The position numbers and the translations under genes are program-made. A stretch of DNA of 64,000 nt from the NCBI GenBank assembly GCA_019694165.1, contig JAIBCL010000008.1:186001-250000 (forward strand), in the 5' to 3' direction. Below the pieces are notes generated by a model, which was not told the DNA's origin, made no database searches, and saw nothing but the letters and a program-made list of their open reading frames with translations. Shown piece after piece: positions 9,803-16,973 of this stretch. Position 1 is the first letter of the stretch. Each line of letters opens with the position of its first letter. This DNA comes from Verrucomicrobiaceae bacterium. GTDB lineage: Bacteria > Verrucomicrobiota > Verrucomicrobiia > Verrucomicrobiales > Verrucomicrobiaceae.

Positions 9803-12310
9803 TTACTGCACCGGCGGCAAGATCGGATTTGGCCCGGCCCCGGCAGTGTCTCCGGCGGTGCCGGCACCAACCGTTGGAGCAGGGAGCCTGATCTTGGCCC
9901 CGGATGGATCAATCAAGCTGGCGGTCACGAATATCATCAAGTTCCGCTTGTAGTGGTCTTCCGCCTTGGTCTGGAACAATCTCCCCAAGACCGGGATGTC
10001 ACCTAGCAGGGGCACCTTGTCCTGCACATTTTGCACATCCTCGCGAATCAGGCCTCCCATCACTACTGTGGCACCGTCAAACACGGTTACCGACGTCTTT
10101 AGTTTTCTAGATGAGAACACCGGCTGCTCGATCTTGTTCTCAGTAAGGACGACGGTTGTCGGATTGCCCAAGGCATCAGAAGCACCCGTCTGGATCGGGC
10201 TTCCGTAGTTGATGAAGCCTTCGAATTCGGTGACCTCCGGAGCAAGATTCAAATCAATGGTGTAACCATCGGCACCCAAGGTAGGTTCCACTTCCATCCG
10301 GACACCGACGGGGCGCATTTCGAATGCTGTTGGCGTAGTAGGTGTGACGGGGAAAGATCCCGTTCCGCCACCGGAGGTTCCAAGAACGGACGTAGTGTTC
10401 ACCCCGTTGCCAGTCGTTTGCGGAATCTGCGGCGGATCGAATTCGGTCGGATAGATGAATTCACGCACGACTTCCACGCTGGCCTGCTGGCCGCTCTTAG
10501 TGGTCACACTCGGAGCACTCATAAGATCGACCCCTTTCTTCTGGGCAAGCGCCCGGATCACCACCTGGAACTGGGGATCTGTGAACACACCCGAGAAAGC
10601 CAGGATACCCGGAGCAAGCGTCGAAGCGGGCTTCGTACCCGACAACAGCCCATCAATGGAATCAGACGTAATGGCAGCCGTTCCAGAACGGTTGCCAGCA
10701 GTGACGGGGAAGTTGCCTGTAGCGGACGTACCTGAACCGAAGGGAAAACCGCCTCCAGTTCCGTAGTCGTTTGAGGAGTTGCCAGACGTTCCACCCGAAG
10801 CGAACACCCGGTTGCTGCTGGGAATGTTAAAAGGACCAAGGAGCCAATCGAATCCGAGTTCATCCGTGTTCTTCTGCGAGACTTCCACGAACTTGGAAGT
10901 GATGTAGATCATTTTAGGCTTCTGGTCGACGATGGACTGAACGAAGGTTTCGACCTGATCCAAGTTCGGCTGGGTGTTCTTTACGATGAGTTGCGAACTC
11001 ACTTTGTTAAACACCGCCGAGGCACCTTCCGGGAACTGAATTCCTTGGTCTTTGAGAATCTCGAGGGCTGTCTTGCGAGTGAGCAGCTTTGACCCGGTGT
11101 CTGCGGCAGCACCTTTGCCCGCGGCAAATGGATCAGCCGGTGCGGCAGCGCCACCACCGCCCCCTCCACCACCATCACCTCCACCTCCCAGGCTGAGGAA
11201 ATCAGGTGGCACACGATAGATGCGGGTGAACTGCTCGCTCGTCGTCTCAGAAAGCGGCACCACGAGGACGGCAAATGGCTCGATCTTGAATTTCATCCCG
11301 GCCAGTTCGGTGATGTAGCGAAGCGCTTCCGCCATGGGCACGTCCTTGAGGTCGAGGGTGATCTGGGCGCTGACCGGGGTGTCGCCCGTTTTCATGATGA
11401 TGTTCACACCCTTACGCTCCGTGTTCCGCTCCGTAAGGTCGAGATCGCGGCTCTTCACGCGGAGGAATTCGATGGCCTCCTCGACTGTGGCACCGGTGAA
11501 CTGGACTGAAGGGAAAACGATTCGCTCCATTTTTTCCTTGATGTAGGCCGATGGCTGGGTCCCGACGCCGAGTTCAGCTTTGATGTCCAAGCCGGCAACA
11601 GGCACTTTGGTCTCCCACTCCTCGTCCACCTTGGCGATCATCTGCGCCCGCGTGTGGTCACGAGCGGAGTCATAATATGCGCTTCTGAGTTGCTCCACTT
11701 TCTCCATGCCACGGCGGGCCGAGGTATTGTATGGATCCTTGCGAAGCACATCTTGAAACTCTGCATTCGCCTTGTCGTAATCCCCCAGTTCTTTGTAACT
11801 GTTAGCTTTCTCCAGTCCGCGCTCCACTTCATGGACTTTGGTGACGTGCTCGGGCGTCAGCGCACGTGGCCAGCGGTCTGGATCGTCAAGCTGCTTGAGC
11901 AGCGTCTTGGCTCCTTTGTGTTCAGGATTGATAACAAGCGCGCCCTTGAGCAGTTCGTTCGCTTCGGGATAACGACCGTTCTTTGCACGGTCGTGGGCGA
12001 GGGCAACGCTGCAATCCGCATATTTCGCGTTGGCCACGTCACGCCACGGTTTGGTCATAGGGGCATTGGGCAGGGCTTCGATCGCCCCTTTGTACTCGCT
12101 CAACGCCGTTTCATAATCCTCCTCGGCATATGCCTTGTCACCCCGCTCAAGAGCCTGTCGCGCATCCTCTTGCCGTGCCATGCGGCGTGCAATCTCGCGT
12201 TCGGCAATGCTCGAAACTCCAGACGCCGCGAACGTAAGGGAACTACCTGCGGAGAGGGCGAGCGAAATGGAGACGACACGGTTGAGAACCAAGCGAGGGG
12301 ACAGGGTCAT
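9803..12310 (-). CDS. Amuc_1098-family type IV pilus secretin (PilQ-like)
   Basis: Outer-membrane secretin of a type IV pilus-like assembly. A signal peptide (to about residue 28) precedes a TPR-like region (about 45-220, e.g. RGDKAYAEEDYETALSEYKGAIEALP). Next come N-domains with VTVDLKD-type repeats, a glycine-rich linker (GGGGDGGGGGGGG) near residue 375, a further N-domain, and the secretin core. The core includes VMGGLIREDVQNVQDKVPLL and GDIPVLGRLF near residues 765-790, both diagnostic. At 835 residues it matches the long verrucomicrobial form rather than proteobacterial PilQ. It is the final gene of the five-gene locus and is followed by a terminator. Family identity is strong; the pore's substrate is unknown. 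Confidence 0.9.
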   Translation of the reverse strand: MTLSPRLVLNRVVSISLALSAGSSLTFAASGVSSIAEREIARRMARQEDARQALERGDKAYAEEDYETALSEYKGAIEALPNAPMTKPWRDVANAKYADCSVALAHDRAKNGRYPEANELLKGALVINPEHKGAKTLLKQLDDPDRWPRALTPEHVTKVHEVERGLEKANSYKELGDYDKANAEFQDVLRKDPYNTSARRGMEKVEQLRSAYYDSARDHTRAQMIAKVDEEWETKVPVAGLDIKAELGVGTQPSAYIKEKMERIVFPSVQFTGATVEEAIEFLRVKSRDLDLTERNTERKGVNIIMKTGDTPVSAQITLDLKDVPMAEALRYITELAGMKFKIEPFAVLVVPLSETTSEQFTRIYRVPPDFLSLGGGGDGGGGGGGGAAAPADPFAAGKGAAADTGSKLLTRKTALEILKDQGIQFPEGASAVFNKVSSQLIVKNTQPNLDQVETFVQSIVDQKPKMIYITSKFVEVSQKNTDELGFDWLLGPFNIPSSNRVFASGGTSGNSSNDYGTGGGFPFGSGTSATGNFPVTAGNRSGTAAITSDSIDGLLSGTKPASTLAPGILAFSGVFTDPQFQVVIRALAQKKGVDLMSAPSVTTKSGQQASVEVVREFIYPTEFDPPQIPQTTGNGVNTTSVLGTSGGGTGSFPVTPTTPTAFEMRPVGVRMEVEPTLGADGYTIDLNLAPEVTEFEGFINYGSPIQTGASDALGNPTTVVLTENKIEQPVFSSRKLKTSVTVFDGATVVMGGLIREDVQNVQDKVPLLGDIPVLGRLFQTKAEDHYKRNLMIFVTASLIDPSGAKIRLPAPTVGAGTAGDTAGAGPNPILPPVQ

Positions 12311-12408
12311 GGTGGTGAAAAGGGGAATTTTCGAGTGAGGATGAATAAATAGCCAGATTGCGCTGCTTTTGGCGAGAATATTTTACAGTGCAGGTGATTT
12401 TTTCAGCG

Positions 12409-13383
12409 TCATCGGCCTTTGATGACGAGCTTTTCTCCTCCGCTGCCGTCAGCCTTGAGTTCTACAATCACAGCCTGAGTTTCTTCCACATCGAGCAGTC
12501 TGAAGGTAGCGGCAACGCCCGGGACACGGAACTGATCGCCTTTTTTCACCTTGATGGTGACCACCTCCTTCTGCCAAAACTCGAACACAGCGTAGTAATC
12601 GGCGAGGTTTTTCTCCACTCCTCTCACGAGAATGATCTTTGTGTTTGTGGCACGGTCAGTGATGGTGAGTTCCGAGATGTCTTTCGGCACGGGCCCGGGC
12701 ATTTCTTTTTTCTCAAACCCCTCGGCAACGAAGCGCTCGTTAATCTGCCGGGTGACCGGGTCGGGGAAACCGAACGGCTTCGGCAGCGGTGGCTGGATGA
12801 AAGAGCTGGCCCGCCGTGGCGCGAGCAGAAGCACCTGGTAGGGGTCCTGACTGTTGTTGAGCTTGATGATGTAGTCGTCGGCCACGCGCTGTTTGAAATA
12901 CAGGTGATCCGTGAAGGGCGGGTGCTTGAGCGGGTCCATCGGGTCCGTGCCCTTGGTGAATTCCTCGACATTGGAATAGCCGTCCCCGTCGGGATCCAGC
13001 TCGCCGACGTTCGGTGAAAGGTAATTGGGAATGTGGTTCTTGATAAGAAACTCATTCGTCAGCGGCGGCCGCAACTGAGGCTGTGCCACATAAAGATCGA
13101 CGAGATTCTCCCCTTTGAGGATCACCATGATCGATTTGTTGAGGGGCACCGGCTTGTTGTTCTGCACGGGCGACACCCAATTGAAGACTTTTTTCAGCAG
13201 GTCGGAGGACGCCTGAACACTGGCGATTGGCACCGGGTCCATTTCATTTCTTGGCGCCACCTTTTTCTGCAGGAGCGTGTCATTGAAGCCCAGGGTCAGA
13301 TAGACCAGATAACCGCTCACCACCAAGGCAACCAGTGCCATGATCAGAAGCAGTGTCTTTTCAAAATTGCTTTTCTTTTGCAT
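12409..13383 (-). CDS. Amuc_1099-family pilus-system protein (PilP-like)
   Basis: Inner-membrane-anchored periplasmic protein of 324 residues. One N-terminal span (LLLIMALVALVVSGYLVYL) is followed by a periplasmic region. At about 140-160 lies a calcium-loop-like segment, LDPDGDGYSNVEEFTKGTDP, resembling thrombospondin type-3/EF-hand DxDxDG loops. The C-terminal 60 residues (VVTIKVKKGDQFRV to VIVELKADGSG) look like the small beta domain of PilP/GspC proteins. It lies between the Amuc_1100-like and secretin genes, the place pilP occupies in pilMNOPQ. The Amuc_1099 assignment rests on position and overall architecture; the PilP analogy is my inference. Confidence 0.75.
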   Translation of the reverse strand: MQKKSNFEKTLLLIMALVALVVSGYLVYLTLGFNDTLLQKKVAPRNEMDPVPIASVQASSDLLKKVFNWVSPVQNNKPVPLNKSIMVILKGENLVDLYVAQPQLRPPLTNEFLIKNHIPNYLSPNVGELDPDGDGYSNVEEFTKGTDPMDPLKHPPFTDHLYFKQRVADDYIIKLNNSQDPYQVLLLAPRRASSFIQPPLPKPFGFPDPVTRQINERFVAEGFEKKEMPGPVPKDISELTITDRATNTKIILVRGVEKNLADYYAVFEFWQKEVVTIKVKKGDQFRVPGVAATFRLLDVEETQAVIVELKADGSGGEKLVIKGR

Positions 13384-13416
13384 TGCGAGCGGCTGGCTGG
13401 ATTCGTTCAGTTCGCA

Positions 13417-14487
13417 CTACTTCTTGGGCTCGAGGAATCGCACAATGTCGATCTCCATGTAAACCTTGAGCTTCTCCTCGCCAAAAACGGCCAGGGCATC
13501 AACCGGGCCGGGCTTCACGGGTTCGATCACACGCGGCTTCTCAGGTGCGGGTGCAGGAGTCTCACCCGGCTTTGCCGTGCCACCCTCCGGAGCGGGAGGC
13601 GTCGCACCGGCCTCCCCGCCGCCGGTTGGCTCGGGTGGCGTAGGTGCAGGCGGCAGCTTTAGGCTGCCGCGCACGGGTCCTTCCTGCTTTTCGTTGTCGA
13701 TACGGAGCTGCCTCACGATGGTGAAATGGACCATCTTGGACGGACTGGCCAGGCTGTTCATCAATGTCTGGAGCGCCCCCTGATCGGTCGTCATCGTAAG
13801 CGTCACGGTACGGCGCTCCACCACCTTGGTGATCTCCTTCGGCGGAGCGGGTGCCTTTGCGGCCGCCTTGGCCCCCTTGGTCGTCCGCGTCTTCGACACC
13901 GCTTTCTTCACCTCTTTCGGAGGCTCCGGCTTCGGCGCTGGCGCATCACTCTCCACAGCCAGACTCGTGCGCTCGAAGGTGTCAATCGACGCTACTCCGC
14001 TCTCAATGAACATGTTTGTAATCGCATCCACTGCTCCAAGGTAGTCGCCGAGCTGGGTGGCCGCCTCACCAGACCGTGGCAGCGTCTTGTTGTACTTGTC
14101 GAACCCGAAGGCGAATTCCTTCGGCAGCTTGGTTTTGCCATCCGCCGCCTGACGCGTCTCGTTGATCCGTGTCTTGAGCCGGGCCTGAAACTCGGTGTCA
14201 GTCAACGGCTTCACCGGCTGCTGCAGCGCCAGCAGGACCGTGCCCAGCTTGCTGACGGCCGCCTCATATTCGGAGACCGCCTCCTCCCGGGCCAGCACAT
14301 GATCTTCGCTGGGATAGACCTTTGCTCCTTTCAGCGCCGCCACGCTGTTGCTCGCGGTCTGATACTGGTCGAGCGCCGCAGTGTAGCCGAAGTACGACAT
14401 CACCAGCCAGGCGCCAAGTCCAAGACCACCCGCCACCATCATGCCGATGATGGCCGCCAACGTTTTGTTTTCTCGCATCCAGTCCAT
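13417..14487 (-). CDS. Amuc_1100-family pilus-like protein (PilO-like)
   Basis: Homologue by position and layout of Akkermansia Amuc_1100, an outer-surface-associated protein known as a host TLR2 ligand. An MDWMRENK N-terminus leads into one membrane span (about 9-33). Then come a coiled-coil-prone region (YQTASNSVAALKG through YEAAVSKL) and a ferredoxin-like alpha/beta domain, which is split by a Lys/Ala/Pro-rich insert near residues 185-215. The tail is Pro-rich with a final strand KVYMEIDIVRFLEPKK. It has 356 residues, somewhat longer than Amuc_1100. The stop/start overlap with the PilM-like gene is one base (TAATG). By order it occupies the pilO slot; a structural comparison would be needed to confirm this. 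Confidence 0.8.
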   Translation of the reverse strand: MDWMRENKTLAAIIGMMVAGGLGLGAWLVMSYFGYTAALDQYQTASNSVAALKGAKVYPSEDHVLAREEAVSEYEAAVSKLGTVLLALQQPVKPLTDTEFQARLKTRINETRQAADGKTKLPKEFAFGFDKYNKTLPRSGEAATQLGDYLGAVDAITNMFIESGVASIDTFERTSLAVESDAPAPKPEPPKEVKKAVSKTRTTKGAKAAAKAPAPPKEITKVVERRTVTLTMTTDQGALQTLMNSLASPSKMVHFTIVRQLRIDNEKQEGPVRGSLKLPPAPTPPEPTGGGEAGATPPAPEGGTAKPGETPAPAPEKPRVIEPVKPGPVDALAVFGEEKLKVYMEIDIVRFLEPKK

Positions 14488-16280
14488 TATTTCTTCACTT
14501 CCGTTGGCTTGAACTCCATCGGCTGTTTGAGCGGCAGCCGCATGTCAAACTTGTAGGCGTAGCGGTCCTCCTCCACGCCGGTTTCCGCCTTCACGAACGT
14601 CTGCAGGTTCTCACCGATCTTGTCCGAGGCGAAAAATTCCGACTTGGCCAGCACCTTGGCCAGATCATAGACGACTTGCTGGCCGGCATCGTTCTTGCGG
14701 TAAAGCCCCTTGAGGCGCAACTCAAAAGCCGCAGGCTGTGCGGCCGCCTGAGTCTGCGGAGCCGTGCCGGGAGTAGCCGTAGCCGCAGCTGCGGCCTCTC
14801 CCTCGGGAATGCCTGATCCCTTGGCGAGTTCCGGGGTGGTAGACTTTCCACCCTTGAGCGGTTCGACGACGGTGAACCAGATGAGGTCGTTGGCAAACTT
14901 GCCGTTCAACTCGGAAAGCAGGCGCACCCAGAAGGAGCGGTCCTTGATGGCCGTCTCAAGCTGCGCCGCCTGACCCTTCAATTCATCGAGCTGGTTGTCC
15001 AAATCCCGCAAATCATCCGCATAGGCTTTGAGTTCTGTCTGTTCGGCCTCCGTGGCCGCGATGCGCTCCTGCACCTTGCGCTCGGCCGATTTGAAGTATG
15101 CGATCCCCGCACCCAGCGCACCGAAGAGGCAAAGCATTGCCATGACAAGGGCCGGTGCACGCTTCGCCGCATCCCGTTGGACGGCAACCGCATCAGGCAC
15201 GAGTTCGAGTTCGACCGGGCAACTCCCCGCCCCGCGCAGAGCCAGACCGACGAGTTCACCCAGCGCATGGGCATCAGCACCGGCGGCAGCGGCATCGACT
15301 CCGCGATCCACCTGCACTCCTCGCAGCGGATTGAACATTTCCACGGGCAGTTTCAGCTTTTCCTGGAAGAACTCCGTCACTCCCGGCAGGGCCGCTCCAC
15401 CACCAGCGAGGAAAACCCGCCTCGGCGGGCTGCCGCCCTGCTGGCTGCGGTAGTAGTTGATCGTACGCGTCACCTCGCCATGCAGACGGGTCATCGCATT
15501 GCGAATGACTTTGGAAAGCGCGGCCACCGCAGGATCGGAATGCTCCTCGACAGCGCCGCCGAATGCCACGAATCCGTGGTCGCGCTTCTGGCTCTCCGCG
15601 TCACCGAATCCCAGGCCGAACTCCTTGCCGATCGCCGTCGTCACCGTGGCGCCGCCGACGAGGATGTTGCGGGTGAAAAGCCGCTCGCCTTCGATGAACA
15701 CCAAGTTTGTCGAGCGCGCTCCGAGATCAACGATCACCGCCGCCTCATCCGCATCCGGGTAGCTGTAGCGGAAGGCGTTGAACAGCGCCATCGGCGCAAG
15801 ATCGACTCCCGCGCCCTTCATGCCGGCGGCTTCGACTTGGTCGTTCAATTCATTGAGCGAGTCGGCCTTCATCGCCACGAGCACCACTTCCGGCTCCACC
15901 GCATCTTTCTCGCCGACGAGTTCGAAGTCCCAGATCACTTCGTTGATCGGGAACGGCACGTTCTGCCGCGCTTCAAATTCGACGATCTGCTCCAGCTTGT
16001 CCCCTTGCACCGGCGGCAGTTTGACGAAACGCGTGAACACCGTGTGCCCGGCCACCGCGTACCAGACGCTCCCTTTGGAGAGCTTGAGCTTCCCGGCCAG
16101 TTCCTCGAGCGCCACCTTCAACTGGGGCAGCCGCGTGGCGTCCACCGAGGGATCGCCGGCCATCTCCGCGATCTGGTAGCGCTTCAGAATGAGATCGCCT
16201 CCCGCCGTGCGCGCGAAGACAGCCCCGCCCACGCGCTGCGAGCCGAGGTTGAGAACGATGATGTTTTTGGGATCTGCCAT
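14487..16280 (-). CDS. Amuc_1101-family PilM-like protein fused to a PilN-like part
   Basis: Residues 1-350 form an actin-like ATPase fold of the PilM type: IVLNLGSQRVGGAVF at 8-22, AVIVDLGARSTNLVFIEG at 181-198 and RRVFLAGGGAALPGV at 287-301. PilM lacks a membrane anchor, but here a clear span (375-397) follows. A coiled coil (about 398-450, alternating Glu/Gln/Leu) and a 150-residue periplasmic-type domain come next, like PilN. A single chain therefore seems to do the work of PilM plus PilN. An Ala/Thr/Gln-rich linker lies near 490-515. It is preceded 39 bases upstream by the Amuc_1102-like gene and overlaps the Amuc_1100-like gene by one base. Confidence 0.85.
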   Translation of the reverse strand: MADPKNIIVLNLGSQRVGGAVFARTAGGDLILKRYQIAEMAGDPSVDATRLPQLKVALEELAGKLKLSKGSVWYAVAGHTVFTRFVKLPPVQGDKLEQIVEFEARQNVPFPINEVIWDFELVGEKDAVEPEVVLVAMKADSLNELNDQVEAAGMKGAGVDLAPMALFNAFRYSYPDADEAAVIVDLGARSTNLVFIEGERLFTRNILVGGATVTTAIGKEFGLGFGDAESQKRDHGFVAFGGAVEEHSDPAVAALSKVIRNAMTRLHGEVTRTINYYRSQQGGSPPRRVFLAGGGAALPGVTEFFQEKLKLPVEMFNPLRGVQVDRGVDAAAAGADAHALGELVGLALRGAGSCPVELELVPDAVAVQRDAAKRAPALVMAMLCLFGALGAGIAYFKSAERKVQERIAATEAEQTELKAYADDLRDLDNQLDELKGQAAQLETAIKDRSFWVRLLSELNGKFANDLIWFTVVEPLKGGKSTTPELAKGSGIPEGEAAAAATATPGTAPQTQAAAQPAAFELRLKGLYRKNDAGQQVVYDLAKVLAKSEFFASDKIGENLQTFVKAETGVEEDRYAYKFDMRLPLKQPMEFKPTEVKK

Positions 16281-16319
16281 GCGCTGGTCTTTCGCGGAGT
16301 GATAATAGCGGCTGTCTGC

Positions 16320-16973
16320 TTACTTCTCCTTGGACTGGAGATCGTAGTCGGCCCAGAGCGGAGCAAAGGGCGTGCGGCTCTTCGGGATCACCGCGCCGTC
16401 CTGGAAGGCCCAGGTGTTCGAGTCCGGCTGGTTGTCCTTCCCGATCCACCAAGGTCTGCCTTTGTCGGAATGGAATGCCCCCTTGAGCATCTTGCCTCCG
16501 GCGTGAATCTCCAGACCCACGGCCTGCACATCCGCCTTGCCAACCAAATCCTTTTTGACCGCGCCCTTCAATGTTGCCGGAGTGACATAGGCCAGCGCAT
16601 GCACCGGCTCGCCCGGCTTCGCGTTGGGCACGTTCTCAAAGGTAAGCGTCCCCGTGAGCACAATGGGCTTGCCTTCCTTGGTCTTGCCGTTCACGGCCAC
16701 GAAGTACTTGAATTCCAGCGCCGGATACACGCCCTCTTTGCCGCCCAGTTCCGTGGCGATGTCCACATCGATCTCGGTGTCGATCTCCAGCCACTGCTTG
16801 GGCTTCCAGCGCTTCTCGGTCACGCCGCGCGGCGTGTAGTCCGGCGTGTACTGCTGGTCCACCTTCATGTTCTTCACTTTCACACGCACCTGGGTGTCGG
16901 GATCCTGCGCCTGCGCATTGAGCGCCCCAAGGGTGAACACGAGGCTCAGGACAAAAAGTAGTGTCGGTTTCAT
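16320..16973 (-). CDS. Amuc_1102-family pilus-like protein
   Basis: Secreted or periplasmic protein of 217 residues with a signal peptide (MKPTLLFVLSLVFTLGALNAQA). The mature part is beta-rich (VRVKVKNMKVDQQYTPDY; ALEFKYFVAVNGKTKEGKP) and has no enzymatic motif. It begins the five-gene pilus-like locus and lies 39 bases before the PilM-like gene. The assignment rests on its position at the head of the locus and its general layout, as in Akkermansia. Its job is unknown; a minor pilin-like or OM-associated role is possible. Confidence 0.72.
   Translation of the reverse strand: MKPTLLFVLSLVFTLGALNAQAQDPDTQVRVKVKNMKVDQQYTPDYTPRGVTEKRWKPKQWLEIDTEIDVDIATELGGKEGVYPALEFKYFVAVNGKTKEGKPIVLTGTLTFENVPNAKPGEPVHALAYVTPATLKGAVKKDLVGKADVQAVGLEIHAGGKMLKGAFHSDKGRPWWIGKDNQPDSNTWAFQDGAVIPKSRTPFAPLWADYDLQSKEK

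Follow-up and report, generated by a model that had tools for sequence, protein, structure and literature searches.

We find that a five-gene locus in the genome of a Verrucomicrobiaceae bacterium very probably encodes the alignment subcomplex and secretin of a Verrucomicrobiota type IVa pilus (T4aP), with its motors supplied in trans and with adhesion or polymer capture as its likely use. Though real and ancestral, the locus is no new kind of system, and it is already known from Akkermansia. The evidence comes from gene content, folds, a gene fusion, synteny and the singularity of the motors in Akkermansia, all of which are computed directly.

The five-gene locus and its conservation

The window (the whole 64,000-nucleotide stretch of DNA that was analysed) carries five co-directional open reading frames on the minus strand at 9803-16973, where the initial annotation had placed them. 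The features are as follows, in the order of transcription:

16320..16973, minus strand: Amuc_1102 (MUL2A) family protein, 217 aa, first gene of the operon (NF042424)
14487..16280, minus strand: PilM-PilN fusion (Amuc_1101/MUL2B family), 597 aa (NF045709, PilM_2)
15195..15212, minus strand: junction motif E-L-E-L-V-P, fusion codons 357-362 (alignment to the M. xanthus PilN N-terminus, IRINLLP, and conservation)
13417..14487, minus strand: PilO-like protein (Amuc_1100 family), 356 aa, single N-terminal TM (NF038287)
12409..13383, minus strand: PilP-like protein (Amuc_1099 family), 324 aa (NF042425, TSP3_bac, AlphaFold2 model)
9803..12310, minus strand: secretin (Amuc_1098 family, PilQ role), 835 aa (NF042912, Pfam Secretin)

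Family membership is defined here by the cut-off of a curated NCBIfam equivalog model, one model per protein. The scores are 130.8 bits for the Amuc_1102-like protein (NF042424, cut-off 55), 809.4 for the Amuc_1101-like protein (NF045709, cut-off 650), 293.5 for the Amuc_1100-like protein (NF038287, cut-off 180), 194.9 for the Amuc_1099-like protein (NF042425, cut-off 50) and 1069.9 for the Amuc_1098-like protein (NF042912, cut-off 750). The proposed order 1102-1101-1100-1099-1098 is therefore borne out, with every neighbour inside its Amuc family. The intergenic gaps are, in turn, 39, -1, 33 and 98 bases, and the stop of the fusion gene overlaps the start of the Amuc_1100-like gene. The locus is flanked upstream by an elongation factor P/epimerase pair and downstream by dephospho-CoA kinase, Rho and RNase D; the same coaE-rho surroundings are reported for the Amuc locus in Akkermansiaceae (PMC13174399).

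Relatives of Amuc_1101 are found in 278 of 288 sampled Verrucomicrobiota genomes, a count that is an upper bound because it includes weak scores (E 1e-4 to 1e-12) that do not necessarily represent the fused form. Among the matches listed, these relatives are mostly frames of 550-640 aa, and the nearest named ones belong to Prosthecobacter/Verrucomicrobiaceae, with about 62% identity in Amuc_1101. The five genes follow one and the same order in every untruncated locus of the named genomes (58 of 58; genome_contigs). Of 20 loci sampled from the phylum as a whole, 18 also show it in full, and the remaining two are without a detected 1098 or 1102. Because the order is kept in both sets, the locus is not a chance arrangement. 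Among the genomes that give no Amuc_1101 match is a set (f4) with sizes of 2.2-2.5 Mb, in line with the absence from Methylacidiphilales that has been published (PMC13174399). Synteny of MUL2 across Akkermansiaceae and other Verrucomicrobiales families, together with the pilus reading, is also published (PMC13174399). The suggestion of an ancestral role that is not host-specific, already in print at the family and order level (PMC13174399), thus gains support across the phylum from these three counts. As a separate observation, the 1099-1098 gap widens to about 2.6 kb in some lineages (L164, L172 and other loci), and at least three genomes with such long-gap loci (G078, G161 and G114) have a second secretin in or beside the locus.

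The PilM-PilN fusion

The sequence profiles and the predicted model show the Amuc_1101-like chain to be a genuine fusion of PilM and PilN. It runs from a PilM part (1-350) through the ELELVP motif (357-362), a TM segment (about 378-396) and a coiled coil to a PilN-like periplasmic domain (about 448-590). The PilM part matches PilM_2 (PF11104) at E 3.7e-37 and 128.5 bits (cut-off 27) and TIGR01175 at 169.8 (cut-off 133), both models spanning residues 26-350, and the chain is the product of the only PilM_2 gene in its own genome. When a profile of 20 relatives is compared with the PDB, M. xanthus PilM aligns over 1-350 (3jc8_Ma, E 6e-64) and PilN over 355-485 (3jc8_Na). A profile of residues 345-597 alone still finds M. 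xanthus PilN, at E 1.3e-12, so that the merging of PilM and PilN in one chain, as first proposed, is confirmed. That alignment begins at the PilN N-terminus, pairing IRINLLP with the family's vEINLvP, and the junction motif is close to invariant, with L360 kept in 100 of 100 sequences and P362 in 99 of 100. We take the INLLP motif to be the PilN peptide that docks into PilM; a literature search for the motif by name returned nothing. Its presence at the junction speaks for a merger of ordinary T4aP pilM and pilN genes and against a GspL.

The predicted structure of the fusion (pLDDT 87) shows a long helix followed by a b-b-a-b-b arrangement, and the region after residue 400 has the expected PilN/PilO/GspL fold. 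With the INLLP-type motif, the TM segment, the coiled coil and two abb units, the fused chain thus carries the features of a PilN. Its structural matches are GspL/XcpY (Z 7.4), PilO (7.0), EpsL (6.9), Amuc_1100 (5.8), whose structure thus appears beside that of PilO, and PilN (4.5). Since Z of 7 to 8 is modest, the PilN assignment leans mainly on the sequence profile and the junction motif. Foldseek gave no significant match for either the fusion model or the PilP-like model, and a second aligner supplied the informative rows. The Pfam PilN model (PF05137) matched 3 of 32 family members at E <=0.01; in the bacterium's own genome it misses the fused domain, its sole match there being a gene in a T2SS-like set on contig C16.

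The remaining proteins of the locus

The profile of the PilO-like protein finds the Amuc_1100 structures in the PDB (6lad/6kny/6laf, E 1e-57 to 1e-68). For the PilP-like protein the fold bears out the assignment: its AlphaFold2 model (pLDDT 92) matches PilP 2lc4 with Z 7.8, the only one of 989 rows with Z of at least 5, the next row having 4.5. The C-terminal beta domain of this protein carries an inserted beta region (about 170-258), and its N-terminus has a hydrophobic TM segment (11-29) in place of a lipobox, a feature absent from the window protein and present in 1 of 89 family members. A TSP3_bac match (E 5e-6) marks a putative calcium site, D130-x-D132-x-D134-G135 plus E141, which stands out in an alignment of 52 sequences: D130 and D134 are invariant and D132, G135 and E141 are kept in at least 90%, at a mean column identity of 27%. 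Judging from this pattern of residues, we infer that the DxDxDG site may bind calcium; against the PDB, the family profile finds only weak calcium-binding EF-hand chains. Six of the 89 family members also have a strict CxxC...CxxC zinc-ribbon-like stretch ahead of the calcium-type site (window 12409-13383; L068-L087, L103-L182).

The secretin matches Pfam Secretin at 587-800 (E 4e-34). Its N-terminal part has TPR repeats (about 166-201) and gives no Pfam match to an AMIN domain. A second, lone secretin of the Amuc_1098 family occurs in the same genome on contig C22 (L101:6996-9500, 863.8 bits) and likewise at L099:6900-9425 and L100:7836-10358; it is 35-44% identical to the window's secretin, is found in Akkermansia as well and has no adjoining pilus genes.

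The Amuc_1102-like protein begins with a hydrophobic segment and a Sec-type cleavage motif, AQA|QD, and its family profile finds the Amuc_1102 crystal structure (7dsz, E 2e-55). AxA-like cleavage sites are present in 87 of 99 family members. A reading of Amuc_1102 as a type IV pilin finds no support in its leader: a prepilin motif is found in 0 of 99 members by a simple pattern, which odd motifs could escape.

Probable motor genes in trans

Family searches find no T2SSE ATPase, A24 prepilin peptidase or N_methyl pilin in the window, so the claim that pilin, motor ATPase and prepilin peptidase are missing holds locally. It fails for the genome as a whole, where a search for PilB, PilT and PilD recovers all three along with PilC and a pilin. 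The T2SSE ATPases of this genome comprise six of full size and five of PilT size. Contig C44 carries a tandem PilB pair, PilC and a pilin-like gene, with no adjoining secretin or PilM; contig C32 carries PilT/PilU in tandem; and a single prepilin peptidase lies on C22.

The two ATPases on C44 score higher as T4aP PilB than as GspE (439 versus 393 and 505 versus 425 bits), and for the genome's own T2SS ATPase (C10) GspE scores first. By the NCBIfam models, the C44 pair falls below the PilB cut-off (598.6 and 582.5 against 675.65) and the PilT passes its own. With Walker A, Walker B and CxxC motifs intact in both, and 42% identity between them, both PilBs look active from their sequences. Two PilB paralogues in tandem (L027:9580-12948) are kept across families.

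Four complete Akkermansia genomes (G021, G033, G220 and G231) each hold exactly four T2SSE-family ATPases, two of them in a PilB tandem and two in a PilT/PilU tandem, along with a single prepilin peptidase. By elimination, these ATPases are the motors of any pilus there. The tandem PilB-PilC cluster recurs in Akkermansia and in other families; among 10 genomes examined, a pilin-like gene adjoins it in 6 and a PilT-like gene joins it in 4.

An intact tandem PilB pair is present in 14 of 16 genomes with the fusion and in 2 of 25 without a clear fusion (Fisher p 3.5e-7; p 0.009 with one genome per family), p-values that are weakened both by our having chosen the groups ourselves from one sample and by the relatedness of the genomes. 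The two exceptions with an intact pair and no clear Amuc_1101 match are G108 and G196, the latter a fragmented assembly; G046 has the fusion and no tandem pair. Two further genomes without a clear Amuc_1101 match have damaged clusters, with broken PilB/PilT genes in G121 (C1:1031404-1036489) and a stop codon in one PilB in G282 (C65:95529-99565), and this decay looks like loss of the entire pilus. Because the motors are unlinked to the locus, their partnership with it rests on elimination and co-occurrence. The bacterium's genome also holds separate T2SS-like sets with their own secretins and pseudopilins (C10, C37, C26 and C16; L028-L031).

Alternative readings of the locus

Could the same five genes encode an enzyme exporter of the T2SS kind, with the fusion as GspL, Amuc_1100 as GspM, Amuc_1099 as a membrane-anchored GspC and Amuc_1098 as GspD? 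GspL has the layout of the fusion, with an actin-like domain in the cytoplasm coupled to an abb domain in the periplasm, the periplasmic domains of XcpY and EpsL are among the fusion's top structural matches (Z 7.4 and 6.9), and the PilP-like protein shares with GspC a TM segment and the lack of a lipobox. Against these likenesses, the fusion passes the TIGR01175 cut-off for the PilM subfamily (169.8 against 133) and is matched by no GspL model, an INLLP-type PilN motif is retained at its junction, the genes and their partners follow the pilMNOPQ order of a pilus, and PilP is the best match of the PilP-like model. GspL, GspM and GspC are all absent from the NCBIfam and Pfam matches of the window proteins, with T2SSM found in 1 of 32 distant members. 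The four Akkermansia genomes have no T2SSE-family ATPase beyond the PilB and PilT/PilU pairs, and the bacterium's own genome holds GspL/GspM/GspD-like sets separately from the locus. We therefore regard an exporter as unlikely.

It is more improbable still that the locus encodes a static envelope complex without motors, which would serve as a trans-envelope scaffold for structure or signalling after the loss of its pilus function. Such a scaffold would fit the lack of motor, pilin and peptidase genes in the locus, the great abundance of the Amuc_1098-1102 proteins in the Akkermansia envelope (PMC5332112) and the re-use of PilMNO parts as a flagellar cage in Campylobacterota (PMC11870540). What speaks against it is that genomes with the fusion retain PilB and PilT/PilU tandems whose motifs are intact, and that genomes without a clear fusion tend to lack these genes or to carry broken copies. 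The complete Akkermansia genomes retain these motors although they show no further ATPase set for a pilus or a T2SS, and their only additional secretin is a lone one. Both the exporter and the scaffold are thus ranked below the type IVa pilus.

The proposed pilus machine

We infer that the parts of this pilus assemble together as one machine, in which PilMN-O-P-Q and the extra secreted Amuc_1102-type protein would form the alignment subcomplex and outer-membrane gate. Having PilM and PilN in one chain would tie the motor-contacting cytoplasmic ring covalently to the membrane and periplasmic PilN/PilO ring, and the PilN peptide at the junction probably still docks into PilM, in cis or in a neighbouring chain. 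PilP would join PilN/PilO to the TPR-secretin. Extension and retraction would be driven in trans by the tandem PilB-PilB/PilC(-pilin) cluster (C44) and the PilT/PilU pair (C32), and the one prepilin peptidase of the genome (C22) would process the pilins. A point against this reading is that the T2SS-like sets (C10, C37, C26+C16) and the second Amuc_1098-family secretin could share parts with the pilus machine.

The likely use would be to adhere to polymers such as glycans and then pull them in. By analogy with Akkermansia, whose MUL genes are reported to be necessary for mucin accumulation (PMC13174399, PMC12418764), the machine may serve polymer attachment and uptake; marine relatives are likewise reported to take up fucoidan (PMC13174399, PMC12418764). 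The same parts would also fit DNA uptake or twitching. A more tentative and rather doubtful proposal is that there was one ancestral Verrucomicrobiota pilus of distinct build, with covalent PilM-PilN, a calcium-sensing PilP, a secretin with a TPR pilotin-like part and two PilBs acting together, which would have served general polymer capture, mucin uptake in Akkermansia being one late use.

Discussion

The closest known system is Amuc_1098-1102 (MUL2) of Akkermansia muciniphila, which has the same five families, the same order and the same coaE and rho neighbours; the window locus comes from a different family of the same order, and we found nothing else distinctive about it. With the canonical T4aP pilMNOPQ of Pseudomonas, Myxococcus and Thermus it shares the M-N-O-P-Q order, the PilM, PilN and PilP folds and probably that of PilO, a secretin and motors encoded apart. 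It differs from them in that PilM and PilN are fused, the PilP-like protein has a TM segment, a calcium-type site and an inserted beta region and is not a lipoprotein, the secretin has TPRs and no AMIN match, and an extra secreted Amuc_1102 protein is present. In Campylobacterota, T4P clusters with the pilMNOPQ order also have pilM-pilN in one gene (PMC11870540); that fusion belongs to a different phylum and may stem from the same event or from a second one. The likeness to T2SS lies in the GspL-like joining of cytoplasmic and periplasmic parts and in the TM-anchored PilP/GspC-type protein. What is new here is the phylum-wide reach of the locus, the in-trans linkage to its motors, the docking motif retained at the junction, the PilP assignment with a conserved calcium-type site, and the lack of a prepilin leader in Amuc_1102.

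Amuc_1100 has been studied as a host-active probiotic protein, yet the locus that encodes it very probably forms the base of a pilus machine that almost all of the phylum retains, its free-living species among them. The original role of Amuc_1100 would then be that of a part in an envelope machine. The candidate in-trans motor genes (tandem PilB, PilC, PilT/PilU and PilD) provide a short gene list for work on whether Akkermansia and its relatives depend on a functional, retracting pilus to capture mucin and polysaccharides.
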